Shown: one piece after another, positions 16,922 through 26,137 of the stretch
How the letters are laid out: each line of letters starts with the position of its first letter
Position numbering within the stretch: the stretch's first letter is position 1
Source: Verrucomicrobiia bacterium Tous-C4TDCM
GTDB taxonomy: Bacteria > Verrucomicrobiota > Verrucomicrobiia > Verrucomicrobiales > Akkermansiaceae
Direction: 5' to 3'
Length of the DNA: 38,324 nucleotides
Assembly: GCA_002304315.1 (NCBI GenBank)
Contig: NEUO01000018.1
Location: 1 to 38,324, forward strand
Translations under genes and position numbers: made by a program
Notes under the pieces: generated by a model
Databases searched by the model: none
Seen by the model: the letters and a program-made list of their open reading frames with translations, nothing else
Told to the model about the DNA's origin: nothing

Positions 16922-16930
16922 CAGCTCTGG

Positions 16931-17734
16931 TCATTGGACCTTGTACTCGGCACGGACGATCGTGATGATGTCCTTTTCGTAAGCCGTGGTGTCATTGTTC
17001 CCTTCGCTCGATGTAGCGGTGGAATTGGCAGGGTTGATATTGATGATCCCCATCGACGAATACACCAGCGGCCCGAGCTCCGCATTGCCCGCGGACCTGA
17101 GGATGTTCTCCGCCCGGCTGCGGGCATCCTTGGCGGCCTCCGACAGCATCTCCAACTTCAGCTCGCCGAGACGGGTGTAATAGTATCGCGGCAGGTGGGA
17201 GGTCACGAAGACATCCTGCTCCAGCAGCGACGTGATCTCGCGGGAGGCCTTTTCGATCAGCGGCACATCGGGGGATCCCACGGACACCAGTTGAACGGCC
17301 CGGAATCCGGTGGATTTCTGGGTCTCCGTACGCAGCGGGATGTTGGTTCCCTCCAGCACCTTGTCTTCGCGCACGATCTCAAATTCCTCGGTGATCGTGG
17401 CGGACTGGATCTTGATATCGTCCGCCTTGAGGCCCTGCGCCTTCAGAAAGGCCACCACCTTTTCAGTGCCACTTTTGAGCGAAATGTAGGCCGCGGTGCG
17501 GTCGTTGCCGCTGCCCTCGATGGTGGCAGACCACTCGATATGATCCGAGACGATCCTCTTTTTCGCGGAGCCGGTGATCTGGATGTTGTTCTTCTCGGAA
17601 GGCTTCCGGACGTCCCGCCAGGTGCTTGCGGCAATGTAGGTGGAAGTCGCAAGCCCGATGGCGAGCGCGACGGCGGCAAGTGGCGGCAGGCTGATACTGC
17701 GGACGGGACGTTGTGAACCGGGATCGTTGCTCAT
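16931..17734 (-). CDS. SIMPL (DUF541) domain protein, membrane-anchored
   Basis: 267 residues. One N-terminal membrane segment (LAAVALAIGLATSTYIAAS, ~18-36) places the rest outside the cytoplasmic membrane. The SIMPL domain follows: NIQITGSAKKRIVSDHIEWSATI, DIKIQSATITEEFE and the AAKDARSRAENIL helix near residue 205. Relatives (YggE, BP26) are periplasmic and linked to oxidative stress, but the biochemical role is unknown. The gene is monocistronic. Confidence 0.88.
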   Translation of the reverse strand: MSNDPGSQRPVRSISLPPLAAVALAIGLATSTYIAASTWRDVRKPSEKNNIQITGSAKKRIVSDHIEWSATIEGSGNDRTAAYISLKSGTEKVVAFLKAQGLKADDIKIQSATITEEFEIVREDKVLEGTNIPLRTETQKSTGFRAVQLVSVGSPDVPLIEKASREITSLLEQDVFVTSHLPRYYYTRLGELKLEMLSEAAKDARSRAENILRSAGNAELGPLVYSSMGIININPANSTATSSEGNNDTTAYEKDIITIVRAEYKVQ

Positions 17735-17838
17735 GATGGATTTCGTAATTGAGGGTGCGGGTGGCGGATGTCACCCGGCCCGTTCCACACCCCAAGGTCA
17801 TGGATCGGGCCGGGCTTCATGAGCCATCCGCCAGCAGG

Positions 17839-17879
17839 TGCGGAATTTTTCCGCAGAACGGATCAGGAAAATTTGATCC
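17839..17879. promoter_or_regulatory. Two adjacent palindromes upstream of the SIMPL gene
   Basis: TGCGGAA-TTT-TTCCGCA (17839-17855, 7-bp arms) is followed 4 bp later by GGATCA-N8-TGATCC (17860-17879). They lie in the 256-bp spacer between the kinase 3' end and the SIMPL start, about 105-145 bp before the latter. They could be operator sites, or hairpins ending the kinase transcript, though no T-run follows. No gene is seen in 17735-17990. Confidence 0.4.
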
Positions 17880-17990
17880 CCGGGCTTATTTGTCCCGATT
17901 CCTGGCAGGCGCGATTCCGTTGCGGATCAGGTGAGGACATCGGATCGCCACGCTTGGCAGGCCACTACGGCACGGAAAACGAGCACCCTC

Positions 17991-19889
17991 TCATTTCACC
18001 GGTTCCTTCTCTTGTGGAGGAAACAGCTCGTGCCGGATCCCGATCTGATCCGCGGCGGAGGCAAGTTGCCTGAGGCGGAAATGATAAACGGCATCCGTCG
18101 GTTTCGCCCCTGCGGGCAAGGTGACTTTCAGCCGGCGTGACGGGCTTTTCCCGCTGCCATCATCGTCAAGCGGTGTGGCGAAGGCCTTGAGCAGCACGGG
18201 ATAGGCGACCAACTTGCCGTTGTGATAGAACTGACCGCGTTCGTTCATGTCCAAGGCAGTGATGTGGCTTCCAAAGAGCTTGGCTCGCACCAGCCCGACG
18301 GCCACATCGGGGTTCTTCGATTCCATTAGGAGCTGCTCCAGTTGTTCGTTGGCCTGCTGAAGTCGTTCGATTTCCTCCGTGTAGCGCTCTTGGTTCGCCA
18401 CCTCGCTGCTAACCTTGTCGAGCAGTGCCTGGTTTTCTTTTCGCAGCGCCTCGAACTCCGCGGGAAGCTGGGCTCCGCTCTTACTCATGCTCTGGATCTC
18501 TCCGAGCATCTCCTGGTTCGACTCGAGGAGGCCTGAAAGGCGCTCCTTGTAGTCGACGAGCGCGAGCTTCTGCCGGTCCAGCTCCTGGTTTTTGACCGTC
18601 AGCTCCTCCTTGGCGTCGAGCGCCCGCTTCATGCCAATGGATGTCCCCACCGCCCCGAGGAGCAAGGCCGTCAGCAGCGCCGCCCCCGCAATGACCGGAC
18701 TGCGGTGGCGGCGGGCGAAGCGCTGCATGAGATAGGCCATGCTCGGCGGGCGGGCCTCCACGGGCTTGTGCTGGAGAAAGCGGTGCAAGTCCTCCGCCAA
18801 GGCACCCGCCGACTCGTAGCGCCGCTCGGGATCTTTCTCGAGCGCCCTTAGCACGATCCAATCGAGATCGCCTCGCAGCGCCCGGGGAGAGACACCGGTA
18901 TGAGACAGGGGAACCGATCCCGGACCGGCAAGGGACGCGGTGAGCTTGGTACTGGGTCTCGGCGGGATCACCTCCCGGATCAGACGCTGGACTTCCGCGT
19001 AGGACGCCGTGCGGAGCTGTTCGGCATTCAACGGCGTCGCCCCCGTGAGGAGCTCATACAGAATAACGCCGAGTGAATAGATGTCGCTGCGGGTGTCCAC
19101 TGTCTGCGGATTGAGCTCGGCTTGCTCGGGGCTCATGTACTGCGGTGTCCCGATCATCCTGCCCAGTTGTGTGAAAAGGGTCTTCCCGGTGGACTCGCTG
19201 CCGATTGCCTTCGCGATTCCGAAGTCGATCACCTTGACGAGCGGCTCGCCATCGTGGACCGGGACCAGGATATTGGCCGGCTTCAGATCGCGATGAATGA
19301 TGCCCTTCTGGTGCGCGTGCTGAACGGCGGCGCAAACATCGATGAAAAGACCCAGTCGCTCCGCCATATCAAGATCCTCCGCCCCGCAGAAGGCCGTGAT
19401 CGACATGCCTTCGACCAACTCCATCACGAAGTAAGGTCGACCGCTTTCGGTCGTCCCTGCATCGTGCACTTTGGCAATGTTCGGATGATTCATCAGCGCC
19501 AGCGCCTGGCGCTCCGATTCGAAGCGGGCGATGACTTCCCTGGAGTCCATGCCCGGCTTGATCACCTTGAGAGCCACCTGGCGTCTCACCGGCGCACTTT
19601 GATCGGCCAGATAGACCGTGCCGAAGCCCCCTTCACCGAGTTGCCGGATCAGCTTGTAGCGGCCGATCATGTCCCCCGCCCCCTCTCCGCGGATCTCCTC
19701 CCAAAGAATCCGATCAGCCGGTGCCATGAAACTCTCATCCGCGAAATGAGCGGCGACGAGCGAGTCGACCTCCTCACGAAATCCCCGGTCACCGCGGCAG
19801 GCCTCGTCAAGGTAGCAGGCGCGCTTCTCCGGAACCGCGAACTCCAAGGCGGCTTGCAGGATGATCTCCAGGGTGGGGCGTTCTGGCAT
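17991..19889 (-). CDS. Membrane-anchored Ser/Thr protein kinase (PknB-like)
   Basis: 632 residues from ATG 19889. The kinase domain spans ~79-370: glycine loop GEGGFGTVYLAD (85-96), Lys108 in VALKV, catalytic HRDLKPANIL (Asp201), DFGIAKA (222-228) and GTPQYMSPEQ (248-257), so it should be active. A single membrane helix (~397-419) leads into a coiled coil (~425-535) and a ~100-residue C-terminal sensor region outside the membrane, with no recognised fold. An N-terminal helical region (EKRACYLDEACRGDRGFREEVDSL) is typical of planctomycete/verrucomicrobial kinases. It lies 125 bp downstream of the ECF sigma gene, same strand, so the two probably form one signalling unit. Confidence 0.93.
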   Translation of the reverse strand: MPERPTLEIILQAALEFAVPEKRACYLDEACRGDRGFREEVDSLVAAHFADESFMAPADRILWEEIRGEGAGDMIGRYKLIRQLGEGGFGTVYLADQSAPVRRQVALKVIKPGMDSREVIARFESERQALALMNHPNIAKVHDAGTTESGRPYFVMELVEGMSITAFCGAEDLDMAERLGLFIDVCAAVQHAHQKGIIHRDLKPANILVPVHDGEPLVKVIDFGIAKAIGSESTGKTLFTQLGRMIGTPQYMSPEQAELNPQTVDTRSDIYSLGVILYELLTGATPLNAEQLRTASYAEVQRLIREVIPPRPSTKLTASLAGPGSVPLSHTGVSPRALRGDLDWIVLRALEKDPERRYESAGALAEDLHRFLQHKPVEARPPSMAYLMQRFARRHRSPVIAGAALLTALLLGAVGTSIGMKRALDAKEELTVKNQELDRQKLALVDYKERLSGLLESNQEMLGEIQSMSKSGAQLPAEFEALRKENQALLDKVSSEVANQERYTEEIERLQQANEQLEQLLMESKNPDVAVGLVRAKLFGSHITALDMNERGQFYHNGKLVAYPVLLKAFATPLDDDGSGKSPSRRLKVTLPAGAKPTDAVYHFRLRQLASAADQIGIRHELFPPQEKEPVK

Positions 19890-19932
19890 GGTTCCGGGTG
19901 ATGGGTGAAAGCTCGCGGGAGACATTTCACGG

Positions 19933-19969
19933 GATCCATTTCATGCGAAATAACCCCGGAAAATGGATC
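19933..19969. promoter_or_regulatory. Stem-loop or operator between the sigma and kinase genes
   Basis: GATCCATTT (19933-19941) and AAATGGATC (19961-19969) are perfect 9-bp inverted arms with a 19-nt spacer, in the 125-bp gap between the ECF sigma stop and the kinase start. It could set the ratio of the two products or be a target site. Confidence 0.45.
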
Positions 19970-20014
19970 AAAAACTTTCACAGGAACTGCGAATTCCTCC
20001 AAACCAACCGGCAT

Positions 20015-20599
20015 TCAATCCGACTCGCGGCTCAGTTCCCGGAACAACCAGGCCCGGGCGAATGTCCAATCGCGCTTCGCCGTCGGCGTCGAAATCCCAA
20101 GGGCTTCCGCGGTCTCCTCGAGGGTCATTCCCACGAAATAGCGGAGCTTCACCACCTCCGCCTTGCGCGGCTCGATCAGGGCGAAGCGATCCAGGATCCC
20201 GCTGATGGCAAGGATCTCGTCATCCTGCGCGAATGGCGCCGCGATGACGTCTTCCGCAAATTCAGCTCGCTGCAACCCGCCACCATGCCGCACGGCCTTC
20301 CGATGCCTCGCGCGGTCGATCAGAATGCGGCGCATCGCCTCGGCGGCGGCGCTGAAAAAGTGCCTGCGCCCTTCCCACTGGCTCTCGCCGGGCGAAAGCT
20401 TCAAGTAGGCCTCGTGCACCAAGGCGGTCGCCTGCAGGGTATGCGCCACCGCTTCCTGCCTCAATCGCCAGGCCGCCAGCTTGCGCAGCTCGGCATAGAC
20501 CAGCGGAATGAGATCCTCCGCCGCCTGCCGGTCACCATCGCATGCCGCATGGAGCGTGCGGGTCACATTCTCATCTCCGATTTCCTGGGTGGCTGACAT
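20015..20599 (-). CDS. ECF RNA polymerase sigma factor (TIGR02999-type)
   Basis: 194 residues. Region 2 is seen in LVYAELRKLAAWRLRQE, THTLQATALVHEAYLKL-like sequence and RRHFFSAAAEAMRRILIDRARHR (the hallmark of this subfamily). Region 4 is a helix-turn-helix, VVKLRYFVGMTLEETAEALGISTPTAKRDW. These ECF factors occur mainly in Planctomycetes, Verrucomicrobia and Acidobacteria next to Ser/Thr kinases, with no classical anti-sigma factor. Phosphorylation by the downstream kinase is a natural hypothesis. Confidence 0.93.
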   Translation of the reverse strand: MSATQEIGDENVTRTLHAACDGDRQAAEDLIPLVYAELRKLAAWRLRQEAVAHTLQATALVHEAYLKLSPGESQWEGRRHFFSAAAEAMRRILIDRARHRKAVRHGGGLQRAEFAEDVIAAPFAQDDEILAISGILDRFALIEPRKAEVVKLRYFVGMTLEETAEALGISTPTAKRDWTFARAWLFRELSRESD

Positions 20600-20746
20600 G
20601 GGTGCGGGAACGGTTTGGCAGAATTGCTCGCCTTTCTCAAAGGCAGAGAACGCGCTGCAAAGGATCCTGCTTTCTCAGAGAACCGCCATTGTGCGATGAA
20701 AGCGATGCAGCCGACAAACCGGCATGAGCAAAACTTGAATGGCCTT

Positions 20747-20764
20747 TGATCCTTCTCAGGATCA
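20747..20764. other. Hairpin in the spacer upstream of the sigma gene
   Basis: TGATCCT-TCTC-AGGATCA is a perfect 7-bp stem with a 4-nt loop, in the 229-bp spacer between the hypothetical gene at 20829 and the sigma gene. It may be a weak terminator for the former or an operator for the latter. No T-run follows on either strand. No gene is seen in 20600-20828. Confidence 0.4.
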
Positions 20765-20828
20765 CGATGCCGAAATACCGAAGCGCCGTCGTTTGGGATC
20801 TTGTCCGTCCACGGTGCAGGACCGAGGG

Positions 20829-21395
20829 TCATTTCGACTCGGGGCGGGCAGACGGTTTTCCTCCACCGTCCTCGCTGCGTTTTGTCCAGAAACCCTTGAA
20901 GGCGGGGTTGAGCTTCCGATCCTCCGTCAGCAACTGTGGCGCATCGGGAAAACGGCGGCGCATGTCGGAAGCCATGTGCATCAACCCAAAAGCCGGGAAA
21001 CTTCCGGTCTCGGAATCGGCGATAACGGTGTCGAACTGGGAATAATCGCCAAACGCAGTCTGCAAGGCGGAGATCAAATAGGCTCTCTTCATCGGATCGT
21101 CCTGATCCTTGATCGCGGCCAGGAGATCGGAGTGCGCGGATCCGCCGATCTTCTCAAGGGCACTTGGCAAGTAGCCGTATCGACGCACCCAAGGTGAGTT
21201 CTTCTCAATACTGGCGATGGTCGGTCGGATCGCCCGCTCGCCGAAGAACACGATCCGATCGCGAGCAGCTCGAGAGGACTCTTCACCCTTGCCGGTGGCC
21301 AGCGCCATCGACCAGACGGCAAGCTGCGGCAACACCAACCATCCGCCGATGGAGATCGCGGCGAAGCTGGTTAGGATGACATTGCGGCGACGCAT
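20829..21395 (-). CDS. Hypothetical membrane-anchored protein with HEAT-like helices
   Basis: 188 residues from ATG 21395 (a TTG at 21425 is the listed alternative). An N-terminal hydrophobic segment (VILTSFAAISIGGWLVLPQLAV) anchors it. The following segment (FFGERAIRPTIASIEKN, then SPWVRRYGYLPSALEKIG) looks like short alpha-helical HEAT-type repeats. I do not recognise the family. It lies between the sigma/kinase unit and another unknown membrane gene, all on the minus strand but with spacers of about 100-230 bp. Confidence 0.6.
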   Translation of the reverse strand: MRRRNVILTSFAAISIGGWLVLPQLAVWSMALATGKGEESSRAARDRIVFFGERAIRPTIASIEKNSPWVRRYGYLPSALEKIGGSAHSDLLAAIKDQDDPMKRAYLISALQTAFGDYSQFDTVIADSETGSFPAFGLMHMASDMRRRFPDAPQLLTEDRKLNPAFKGFWTKRSEDGGGKPSARPESK

Positions 21396-21497
21396 GGGAT
21401 TGAGCGAACGTCCGAAGTCCTCCAACGCCTAACTGGGGCGAGGGATCGACTGTGGGTTGCTGGAGGAACGCTCATGGCAATTGGAACTGCCGGCCGG

Positions 21498-21935
21498 TCA
21501 GTCGTTGGGATCGACGGCGTCGGCGACTTTTGTTCGCGGACGAACAAGCAGCAAGATTCCCGATACACTCCAAATTGCTGCAAACTCACCGAGAATGCCC
21601 GCGGTTTGCATCCCGGTCCTCATCATGATGTAAAACCAACGCTGGGGATTCGACGCCACATCTGCAAAGCCAGCGCTATTCACACCAGCATCTGTAAAAG
21701 CCCAACGTCGCAATCCGAGCAAACCGTGGGTGAGTGACCAGACAGTTGCGGCAAGATGACCGATAAGAACGCACCACAGGAGTTGCCTCAGATGGAAGCG
21801 CAAGGTAGGGCGAGCAATGAAGAGCGGGAAGGCCAATACCCAAACAAAGGCCAGCACGTGGGCCGGGATGGTCCCGACGTTGATGGGGAACCAAAGCTCA
21901 TACCACGGTATCGGAATTGCGATTGAACCCAGCAT
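21498..21935 (-). CDS. Hypothetical membrane protein with four predicted helices
   Basis: 145 residues. Hydrophobic stretches are seen at about 20-42 (VGTIPAHVLAFVWVLAFPLF), 50-70, 95-115 and 115-132 (ILGEFAAIWSVSGILLLV). No motif is recognised. The N-terminus (MLGSIAIPIPWYELWFP) starts close to a membrane interface. Base composition is less GC-rich than the neighbours, hinting at different ancestry. Confidence 0.55.
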   Translation of the reverse strand: MLGSIAIPIPWYELWFPINVGTIPAHVLAFVWVLAFPLFIARPTLRFHLRQLLWCVLIGHLAATVWSLTHGLLGLRRWAFTDAGVNSAGFADVASNPQRWFYIMMRTGMQTAGILGEFAAIWSVSGILLLVRPRTKVADAVDPND

Positions 21936-22250
21936 GGCGTTTCAGATTCTTTGCCCAACAGTATGGATCACCAAACGGTCGGACTACCCCCTGTTCCCCG
22001 ACCCGTCGGAGAACCGAAGAAAAGCCGACACCGGGGATTCGAAGGTCGCGTGGATCGTTCAAGCCCGACTTCTAGCAGCGCAACCGGGATCTGCCAAGAA
22101 ACGAGTCTGGAGAAGCGCTGAGGCCCACGATTGGCCCCATGTCATCTCCGCGATCCCTCCCCGACCTCTGCGTCTCCGCGGCTCGTTTCGTCTTAACTCC
22201 TGCAGATTTCCCATCGTCATCCCGCCCCTCACTCCCCATCCTCCCCCCGA
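21936..22250. other. Non-coding spacer with a CTCTGCGTCTCCGCG-type repeat piece
   Basis: I see no gene in this 315-bp divergent spacer. CCTCTGCGTCTCCGCGGCTC at about 22169 resembles a repeat often found between verrucomicrobial genes. The stretch before the amidase start is C-rich and lacks a Shine-Dalgarno. Confidence 0.4.
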
Positions 22251-22973
22251 ATGAAACCCTAGACCTTCGCTGCCGCCGGCATCGCCCTCCTGCTCGCCTC
22301 TTGCGCCGGACCGGGGGGGAGTGGTGGCTTACAGCACGACAAATGGGGCCACCGCCCCGGGCCGAAAGGCTTCCACACCGTCATCATCGACGCCGGCCAC
22401 GGCGGCAAGGACTCAGGCGCGATTTCCCGCAGCACCGGCGCGCAGGAAAAGGATCTCGCCCTCGACACCGCCCAGCGCCTCCAGCGCCAGCTCTCCGGCA
22501 AGGTCAAGGTGGTGATGATGCGCAAGGGCGACTCGTTCATCGAGCTCGACGACCGCGCGTCCCGCGCCAGCGGCAAGGACGGCACCGTGCTCATCAGCAT
22601 CCACTACAACTCCAGTAGTTCCGGCATCCGCGGGCCGGAGACCTGCTACTGGCGCGTCGACAGCCACGGCCTGGCGACCCGAGTCCAGCGCGCGATGGAA
22701 TCCGTCTCGCCCGCCGAATCCGGCAACCGCGGCAAAGTCCGCCGCCGCCTGCGCCTGACCCGCAATCCCGACGTGCCCTGCATCCTCGCCGAACCCGGCT
22801 ACCTCAGCCACCCCGCGGAAGCCCGCCTCTGCTCCGACCCGGCCTACCGCGAACGGATGGCCTCCGCCCTCGCCCGCGCCATCCTCGACCAGCAGGCAAA
22901 CGGCGACGCCGGCTCCTTGCCCAAGCCGATCTACGCCCCGCCCAGCCGCCCGACCGATCCACCGGGCTCCTGA
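22251..22973 (+). pseudogene. N-acetylmuramoyl-L-alanine amidase lipoprotein interrupted by TAG at codon 4
   Basis: Reading from ATG 22251 gives MKP, then TAG (22260-22262), then TFAAAGIALLLASCAG, a complete lipoprotein signal with lipobox LASC, and an intact Amidase_3 domain to 22973. The domain has HTVIIDAGHGGKDSG (zinc His), QEKDLALD (zinc Glu), ISIHYN (zinc His) and CILAEPGYLSHP (catalytic Glu). These enzymes cut the peptide stem from peptidoglycan in the periplasm. No ATG, GTG or TTG lies in frame between the TAG and the GTG at 22509, which would omit the first zinc ligands. One C-to-T change (CAG to TAG) would explain the stop. Recent nonsense mutation, readthrough or a sequencing error are all possible; the rest shows no decay. 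Confidence 0.8.
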
Positions 22974-22978
22974 TCCCC

Positions 22979-23437
22979 TCACCGGCCGCCTTCGACCCGT
23001 AGCTTCACGTCGCGCAGCATCCCGTTGTAAGCGGATTTTCCCATCATCATCGGTTCGCGGACGATCTCCCCGTCGACCGTGCTCTGCTGCGCCACCTCGA
23101 CCTGGCAGGTCACGGTGAATTCCGAGCTGCCCGTGCTGCGCCAGCGCACCGTCGGCCGGATCATCACCGGATTCGGGTTGTCGATCGTCGTCCACGCGAT
23201 CTCCGCGCTACGCCCGCCGCGCTTCTGGAAGGTGATCATTCCCGGGCTCTGCGAGAGCACGGAAAACTCCTGCGCCTGGAACACCGAAATCACCGAACGC
23301 CGCACCGCATCGGAGGAAGTCGTCCGAATCGTCGTCGAAGCCAGGCTGTCCACCCCGCCGCCACCGACACCCACCGCCGCGCCGCAGCCGGACAACACCA
23401 GACACCCGAGCCCCGAAAGCCATGATCTGCGATTCAT
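22979..23437 (-). CDS. Hypothetical lipoprotein
   Basis: 152 residues from ATG 23437. The signal peptide ends in lipobox LSGC (MNRRSWLSGLGCLVLSGCG), and a glycine-rich linker follows. The body has alternating beta-type segments (FSVLSQSPGMITFQKRGG, EFTVTCQVEVAQQ) and resembles small outer-membrane-attached proteins with no known role. It converges on the amidase gene with only 5 bp between stop codons and is divergent from the SGNH hydrolase. Confidence 0.75.
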   Translation of the reverse strand: MNRRSWLSGLGCLVLSGCGAAVGVGGGGVDSLASTTIRTTSSDAVRRSVISVFQAQEFSVLSQSPGMITFQKRGGRSAEIAWTTIDNPNPVMIRPTVRWRSTGSSEFTVTCQVEVAQQSTVDGEIVREPMMMGKSAYNGMLRDVKLRVEGGR

Positions 23438-23544
23438 GAGCCCACGATGCCTCGCCCGCTTTTCCCGTCGAGCGCCAAGTCCGAAGTCGCCGACGATGCC
23501 AGAGCACAATGACAGACCCCGCAGCTTCACAAGGTAAGCCGCCC

Positions 23545-24831
23545 ATGTCCGCCAAGCTCTCCCTCCTCGCCTTTCTAACCATCGCCACCACCGGCCTCCG
23601 CGCCGCGACCCCGCTCAACGCCGCGGCCCTGCTCCCCGAAGGCGCCCGGCTCGCCGTGGTGGGCGACTCGATCACCGAACAGAAGCAGTACACCCGCTTC
23701 ATCGAAGCCTACCTCGTCGCCTGCGCCGGCCGGTCCGACGTGAAGGTCTTCCAGTTCGGCTGGGGCGGCGAGACCGCCGGCGGCTTCGCCCAGCGCGCCA
23801 TGAACGACCTCGCGGTCTTCAAGCCGACCACCGTGACGCTTTGCTACGGCATGAACGACGGCGGCTACCGGCCCTTCGATGAGAACGTCGGCAAGGGTTA
23901 CACCGAATCGATGCGCGCCGTGATGACCGTCCTCAAGGACATCGGCGTGCCGCACGTGGTGGTCGGCTCGCCCGGCGCGGTGGACACCTTCTTTTTCAAG
24001 CGCGACAACTTCGCGCCGAAGTCCGGTGCAGACGGCTACAACGACAACCTCCGCCAGCTCGGCGAGATCGGTAAAACGCTCGCCGGCGAGTTCCAGCAGA
24101 CCTTCGCCGACGTCCACCAGCCGATGATCGACGCGATGCGGATGGCCAAGCCCGCCCTCGGGGAAAACTACGACGTCTGCGGCGGCGACGGCTTTCACCC
24201 GAATGCCAACGGCCACCTCGTGATGGCGATGGCCTTCCTCAAGGCCCTCGGCTGCGACGGCAACATCGGCGAAATCGCGATCGACATGAACGGCCCGGCC
24301 ACATCCAGCGACGGCCACAAGGTCCTCACCAGCGGCCCCGGCACCGCGGAGTTCGAAAGCACCCGCTACCCCTTCTGCTTCCAAGGCGATGAAAAGTCAT
24401 CCTCCGGCACCCGCAGCATCGTTCCCTTCATCCCCTTCAACCAGGACCTGAACCGCTTCATCCTCAAGGTCGCGAATCTCCCGTCCGCCAAAGCCAGCGT
24501 GACCTGGGGCAGCGAGACCAAGGAGTTCACCAAGGAACAACTCAGCGCCGGGATCAACCTCGCCGCGGAGTTCCCCGTCACGCCCTTCGACGCCAACTTC
24601 GCCGCCTACCTCGGCCAGCTCGGCGGCAAGCAGCAGTTCGAGACCGTCCTGATCAAGGAACTGGTCACCCGCTTCCGCGCCTTCGACGGCGAAGCCAAGG
24701 CCGACCCGGAAGTCGCCGCCGCCTTCGACACCCTCCGCAAGAAGCTCCCCGCCCGCCAGGCCGCCCTTGACGCCCAGGCCCGCCAGGCGCTGGCCCCGGT
24801 CAAGCATGGCCTGAAAGTCACGCCGCTCTGA
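23545..24831 (+). CDS. Secreted SGNH/GDSL-type hydrolase
   Basis: 428 residues from ATG 23545. A signal peptide (~1-20, ending GLRAAT) is followed by block I VVGDSITE with the catalytic serine, block III YGMNDGG and block V GDGFHPNANG with the Asp-His pair. The domain ends near 235. About 190 further residues form a beta-rich and helical C-terminal region common to verrucomicrobial homologues. Such enzymes deacylate glycans or lipids; the substrate is unknown. Confidence 0.87.
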   Translation: MSAKLSLLAFLTIATTGLRAATPLNAAALLPEGARLAVVGDSITEQKQYTRFIEAYLVACAGRSDVKVFQFGWGGETAGGFAQRAMNDLAVFKPTTVTLCYGMNDGGYRPFDENVGKGYTESMRAVMTVLKDIGVPHVVVGSPGAVDTFFFKRDNFAPKSGADGYNDNLRQLGEIGKTLAGEFQQTFADVHQPMIDAMRMAKPALGENYDVCGGDGFHPNANGHLVMAMAFLKALGCDGNIGEIAIDMNGPATSSDGHKVLTSGPGTAEFESTRYPFCFQGDEKSSSGTRSIVPFIPFNQDLNRFILKVANLPSAKASVTWGSETKEFTKEQLSAGINLAAEFPVTPFDANFAAYLGQLGGKQQFETVLIKELVTRFRAFDGEAKADPEVAAAFDTLRKKLPARQAALDAQARQALAPVKHGLKVTPL

Positions 24832-25092: not shown

Positions 25093-26046
25093 TCAACCCC
25101 GCACCACCACCAACCTCCCAGCCCGCCTTCTCATCACCCACCCTCCCGGCAGATTCACCGCCGGCCCCGCCGCGGGATCCATCAAGCCCAGACAGCGCTC
25201 CACCACCTCCCGCGAAAGTTCCGTCACCCCGGAAGTACGAAGGTAATCGTAGATGCAGGCCGCCTGCACCGCTTCCGGCAGCGTCCTCAACCGCGGCACG
25301 TGCAGCCGCCCCTGCGGATCCACCGCCGCCGCCTGCGCCACCGCCCAGCGTTCGATCTCCCGCATCTCGGCCGATCCTTCTTCCGCCCGCCGCAGCGATT
25401 CCCCCACATCCCGCCGCGCAATCTCCGCCAACAGTGGCAGCGCCTCGTTGCGCAAACGGTTCCGCGCCGCCACCGGCTGGGCATTGCTCGCGTCTTCTCT
25501 CCAAGTCAGCCGTTCCGCCCTCAGCCACTCCCGCAACTGCTCACGCCGCGCCCCCAGCAAGGGCCGCAAGCATTCCACCAGCTGCCCGCCGAGTTTCAGC
25601 ACCTGGCTTTCCTTCATCCCGGTGAAACCCCGGCTGCCCCTCAACAGGTTCCATAAAATCGTCTCCGCCTGATCGTCCGCATGATGGGCAAGCAGCAGCC
25701 GGTCGCAGCGATACTTCCGCGAGCATTCACCGAAAAACCCATGCCGCGCCTCCCGCGCCGCCGTTTCCATCGAGGCGCCGCTCGACTTCATCAGCGCCCG
25801 CACCTCCGCCTTGCCCGACTCACAGCGATAGCCCAGCGAAGCCGCCAGCTTTTCGACAAAGCGCGCATCCCCCGCCGACGCCCGCCCGCGCAGCCCGTGG
25901 TCGAGGTGGCAAACCACCACCTCACGGAATCCATGCCGGTGCAGCAAATGCAGCAGCGCCACCGAATCCGCCCCGCCCGAAATGCCCGCGAGGTAGCGCC
26001 GCCGCTTCGGCGCTTCACGAAACCAGGCGATGTCCGGCAGCGGCAC
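25093..26046 (-). CDS. tilS: tRNA(Ile)-lysidine synthase
   Basis: 317 residues from GTG 26046 (VPLPDIAWFREAPKRRR); ATG 26157 is the alternative but would run into the divergent helicase gene. The PP-loop ATP motif SGGADS lies at ~23-28, and HLDHGLRG, ASMETAAREAR and LAHHADDQAETILWNLLRGS are classic TilS landmarks. It changes C34 of the CAU-anticodon tRNA-Ile to lysidine so that AUA is read. The C-terminal substrate-binding domain seems short (SREVVERCLGLMDPAAGPAVNLPGGW), as in many non-enteric forms. Confidence 0.92.
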   Translation of the reverse strand: MPLPDIAWFREAPKRRRYLAGISGGADSVALLHLLHRHGFREVVVCHLDHGLRGRASAGDARFVEKLAASLGYRCESGKAEVRALMKSSGASMETAAREARHGFFGECSRKYRCDRLLLAHHADDQAETILWNLLRGSRGFTGMKESQVLKLGGQLVECLRPLLGARREQLREWLRAERLTWREDASNAQPVAARNRLRNEALPLLAEIARRDVGESLRRAEEGSAEMREIERWAVAQAAAVDPQGRLHVPRLRTLPEAVQAACIYDYLRTSGVTELSREVVERCLGLMDPAAGPAVNLPGGWVMRRRAGRLVVVRG

Positions 26047-26137
26047 GAACCATCCATGCCATCGCCGGAGCGAAGGCGGAATCCGAAACTCCCGCGGCTT
26101 GCCTTCCGCGCCGTGTCGCTCAATCCTGCCTGCCCGT

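Follow-up and report, generated by a model that had tools for sequence, protein, structure and literature searches.

A probable young nonsense pseudogene: an amber codon near the start of an otherwise intact Amidase_3 lipoprotein frame

Results

The stretch of DNA analysed here (the window, 38,324 nucleotides) is contig 90 of a 4.28-Mb draft genome from a verrucomicrobium, probably of Haloferula type; the draft consists of 206 contigs and is 72% complete. Direct reading of the window gives ATG AAA CCC TAG at positions 22251–22262. Past the TAG, the frame remains open for 236 codons before it reaches a TGA (Table 1), and the amidase frame as a whole comprises 241 codons with one stop and no frameshifts. 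Its read-through product would begin with MKP*TFAAAGIALLLASC and continue through a linker rich in Gly and Ser into an Amidase_3 domain. A first-pass annotation, made from the sequence alone, had reported this amber codon together with an in-frame lipoprotein signal and a complete set of zinc and catalytic residues, and reading of the sequence, the Pfam match and an alignment of 30 sequences bear it out. The same annotation had stated that no ATG, GTG or TTG start would save the domain. Our search of in-frame starts agrees, as it found none that preserves the Amidase_3 domain; the earliest such codon located 3' of the TAG is GTG 22509, and a start there loses the DAGHGG zinc motif.

Table 1. 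Positions of the amidase frame, its leader, its unusual residues and the truncated ortholog in the relative G006 (window coordinates unless a locus is given).
Feature	Position	Strand	Basis or remark
Leader directly 5' of the start; only upstream stretch common with G008	22207–22250	+	blastn homology to G008:C13 begins at 22207
Original start ATG	22251–22253	+	Same ATG in G008
In-frame TAG (amber), codon 4	22260–22262	+	CGG (Arg) in G008
Rest of lipoprotein signal, TFAAAGIALLLASC	22263–22304	+	TGC 22302 encodes the lipobox Cys
Amidase_3 (PF01520) zinc amidase domain	22380–22886	+	H 22398, E 22446, H 22602, catalytic E 22791
TGC (Cys) where 29 relatives carry Tyr or Phe	22644–22646	+	Alignment
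CCC (Pro) right after the catalytic Glu	22794–22796	+	Alignment; relatives I/V/L/C/F/G, Ile in G006 and G008
Original stop TGA	22971–22973	+	End of open frame
Truncated amidase ortholog	L278 17000–18000 (G006:C93)	-	Homology to window

The amidase frame scores 134.7 bits with the Pfam Amidase_3 profile (cut-off 27), and the match covers positions 1–173 of the 174 in the profile. H46, E62, H114 and E177, numbered along the 236-codon frame, show no variation across the 30 aligned sequences; as in the family generally, they would be the zinc-binding residues and the catalytic Glu. Membership in the Amidase_3 family is indicated by the full-length domain above the curated cut-off and by this conserved His/Glu set. 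The intact orthologs are predicted to be small lipoprotein N-acetylmuramoyl-L-alanine amidases, which would be exported and would receive their lipid on the LASC cysteine, and which, judged by their family, would cleave the amide bond joining muramic acid to the stem peptide. Like CwlV (PDB 1jwq) and PDB 4rn7, the window amidase has a full-length Amidase_3 domain with conserved His/Glu residues. However, it differs from both in being a short lipoprotein whose tail is rich in proline, in the break of its frame at codon 4, and in the window-only change of Tyr/Phe to Cys and the Pro following the catalytic Glu. A literature search returned no paper on this enzyme in Haloferula. Rfam gave no match, and the promoter and terminator scans gave no signal.

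A search of 17 other genomes of the genus for the amidase ortholog revealed a full-length copy in 15, with no stop in any of them, and no in-frame stop is present in any of the 29 aligned orthologs. The nearest intact relative (G008) carries an amidase 88% identical to that of the window. Its start, MNPRTFAAAGIALFFASC, aligns exactly with the window ATG, and the column of the TAG is occupied by CGG, two base differences away. Since the homologous gene starts at the same ATG and has CGG at the position of the amber codon, the amber site is more than a chance occurrence. The first-pass annotation had expected CAG or AAG in sister strains; the nearest relative does have a sense codon here, but it is neither of these two. 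The window and G008 have most of their gene order in common between 22207 and about 37080 but not upstream of 22207, where homology to G008 ends 44 bases before the amidase start. Upstream of the amidase, G008 has a sulfatase-like gene, and the window and G006 have another gene set that includes a protein kinase and a sigma factor.

In a further relative (G006), the 5' part of the amidase gene has been replaced. G006 is syntenic with the window on both sides of the gene, upstream over 16925–22107 (with gaps) and downstream over 22767–24831; the matching stretches (16925–17873, 17990–19897, 20026–20640, 21946–22107 and 22767–24831) show 79–91% identity. In place of window positions 22108–22766, G006 has about 564 bp of unrelated DNA, which removes the leader, the start, the signal and the first 168 amidase residues, that is, the 5' 70% of the gene. 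The remnant consists of the last 69 residues and is 87–88% identical. No second amidase copy was found in the G006 assembly, where a DNA query with the 5' part gives, elsewhere, only short matches about 50 bases long. A motif of about 30 bases (CGGTCGGA....CCCCCTGT) is present at the G006 junction and about 670 bp upstream of it, and also near window position 21978. A dispersed repeat was considered as the cause of the replacement and rejected: the 148-bp stretch in common upstream proved not to be a dispersed repeat, although the short motif recurs at the junction. The amidase ortholog is absent from a third relative, G004, whose genome is 97% complete. Because the 5' part is replaced in G006 and the gene is absent from G004, the amidase appears to be dispensable in this genus. 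The window genome itself has further amidase genes, namely an Amidase_3 gene on contig C164 and Amidase_2 genes on contigs C70 and C184.

Apart from the stop, the window copy has two radical changes at conserved positions, the Cys and Pro listed in Table 1. They are accompanied by a two-residue deletion which, among the relatives compared, is present in the window copy only. The G006 remnant spans the Pro site and the deletion site and keeps Ile and both residues; these two changes have therefore arisen on the window's own line. The two window-only changes at conserved sites would fit relaxed selection, as judged from the alignment. However, the dN/dS between the window and G008 amidases is 0.22–0.23, which is on the high side of normal when set against about 70 other orthologs and is no outlier, and the amino-acid relative-rate test gives no significant rise for the window copy (p 0.15–0.79), so decay is barely visible. 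The window copy still looks selected overall, and the lesion is therefore recent or the gene weakly constrained.

In-frame stops were surveyed over about 1.1 Mb of the window genome against about 1.2 Mb of G008, covering about 70 ortholog pairs and 31,000 aligned codons. Only one genuine gene among these pairs, the amidase, has an internal stop; other flagged in-frame stops were discounted on inspection of the alignments, as they lie 5' of the likely start or in antisense-looking reading frames. Release factor RF1 is present in the window genome above its curated cut-off. No tRNA with a CTA anticodon is among the 28 tRNAs found in this draft, whose tRNA set is incomplete at 72% completeness. 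TAG terminates 10 of the 70 ortholog-checked genes and also ends several genes within the window.

Discussion

The analysis suggests that the window gene is probably a recently inactivated amidase gene, either a young nonsense pseudogene or a null allele. It carries a disabling lesion at codon 4 in a gene that is free of stops in all 29 aligned orthologs. A ribosome would start at ATG 22251, stop at codon 4 and release a peptide of three residues, and the lipoprotein amidase would not be made from this gene. Because the next 82 codons contain no ATG, GTG or TTG at which translation could restart, no enzyme is expected, and we infer that no functional protein results. Its loss is likely to be tolerable, since one further Amidase_3 gene and two Amidase_2 genes remain in the genome and since other members of the genus have a truncated copy of this gene or none. 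The mutation itself appears to be real and fixed, and not a minority allele or an error. The first-pass annotation had listed a very recent mutation among four explanations, and this one gains support from the intact orthologs, the truncated copy in a close relative and the overall selected look of the gene; readthrough and a CTG start, also on its list, fare poorly, as discussed below.

A consensus base error or a strain mixture in the draft assembly, with a sense codon as the dominant allele, is possible but less likely than a pseudogene or null allele, and on balance we consider it unlikely. The fragmented and incomplete state of the draft would allow it, as would the presence of only one stop in a gene that otherwise looks selected. 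However, the survey of about 70 orthologs revealed no other genuine in-frame stop in 31,000 aligned codons, and consensus substitution errors are therefore rare. The TAG is also two bases away from the CGG of G008, and the truncation in G006 and the absence from G004 make a true loss plausible. It is more doubtful still that the amidase continues to be expressed, through a non-canonical start (ATC 22281 or CTG 22290), low-level readthrough of the TAG or restart past codon 4. In favour of such expression, the domain is open and retains its zinc and catalytic residues. However, ATC 22281 and CTG 22290 are the only candidate starts before the lipobox, and both were rejected, as either would cost the signal its charged n-region and the greater part of its core and as the ATG is conserved with G008; the proposed CTG start falls on the same grounds. 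A restart would have to await GTG 22509, no CTA tRNA is among the 28 found, RF1 is present, and relaxed selection would suit the two changes that only the window copy has at conserved sites. A related idea, that the start-proximal amber codon serves to restrain a potentially lytic amidase, which would be made at low level by readthrough or a non-AUG start, we regard as very improbable.

Least probable of all, and hardly credible, is that TAG is recoded or suppressed across the whole genome. A single amber codon and a tRNA set left incomplete by the draft are all that speak for it. Against it stand the RF1 above its cut-off, the use of TAG as a common terminator, in the window as among the checked genes, and the lack of any other internal TAG in genuine genes of the ortholog survey. 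The first-pass annotation had raised stop readthrough and had proposed a search for further in-frame TAG codons and a suppressor tRNA; that search, run over about 70 orthologs and 28 tRNAs, found neither and argues against suppression. A lone in-frame amber codon is no evidence for recoding.

The window amidase gene resembles bacterial nonsense pseudogenes (PMC522871) in its single stop, its intact relatives, its paralogs and the truncation or absence of the gene in siblings. However, it differs from them in being young, with no clear rise in its overall dN/dS or amino-acid rate. Taken alone, it is of little significance, as one more young pseudogene. Together, the window stop, the 5' replacement in G006 and the absence from G004 give a small example, from one genus, of a redundant cell-wall hydrolase lost repeatedly.

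Pseudogenes make up 1–5% of gene-like sequences in prokaryotes (PMC522871), and against this figure the load of broken genes in our ortholog sample is ordinary. Indels have broken two further genes of this sample. Compared with its intact counterpart in G008, an aminotransferase-like gene (L222, G000:C141, about 25364–26516, minus strand) has a frameshift near codon 300 that splits it, and is either a pseudogene or the product of an assembly indel. A FAD-linked oxidase-like gene (L235 5422–6548, G000:C164, minus strand) has an internal deletion and a change of frame relative to G008.
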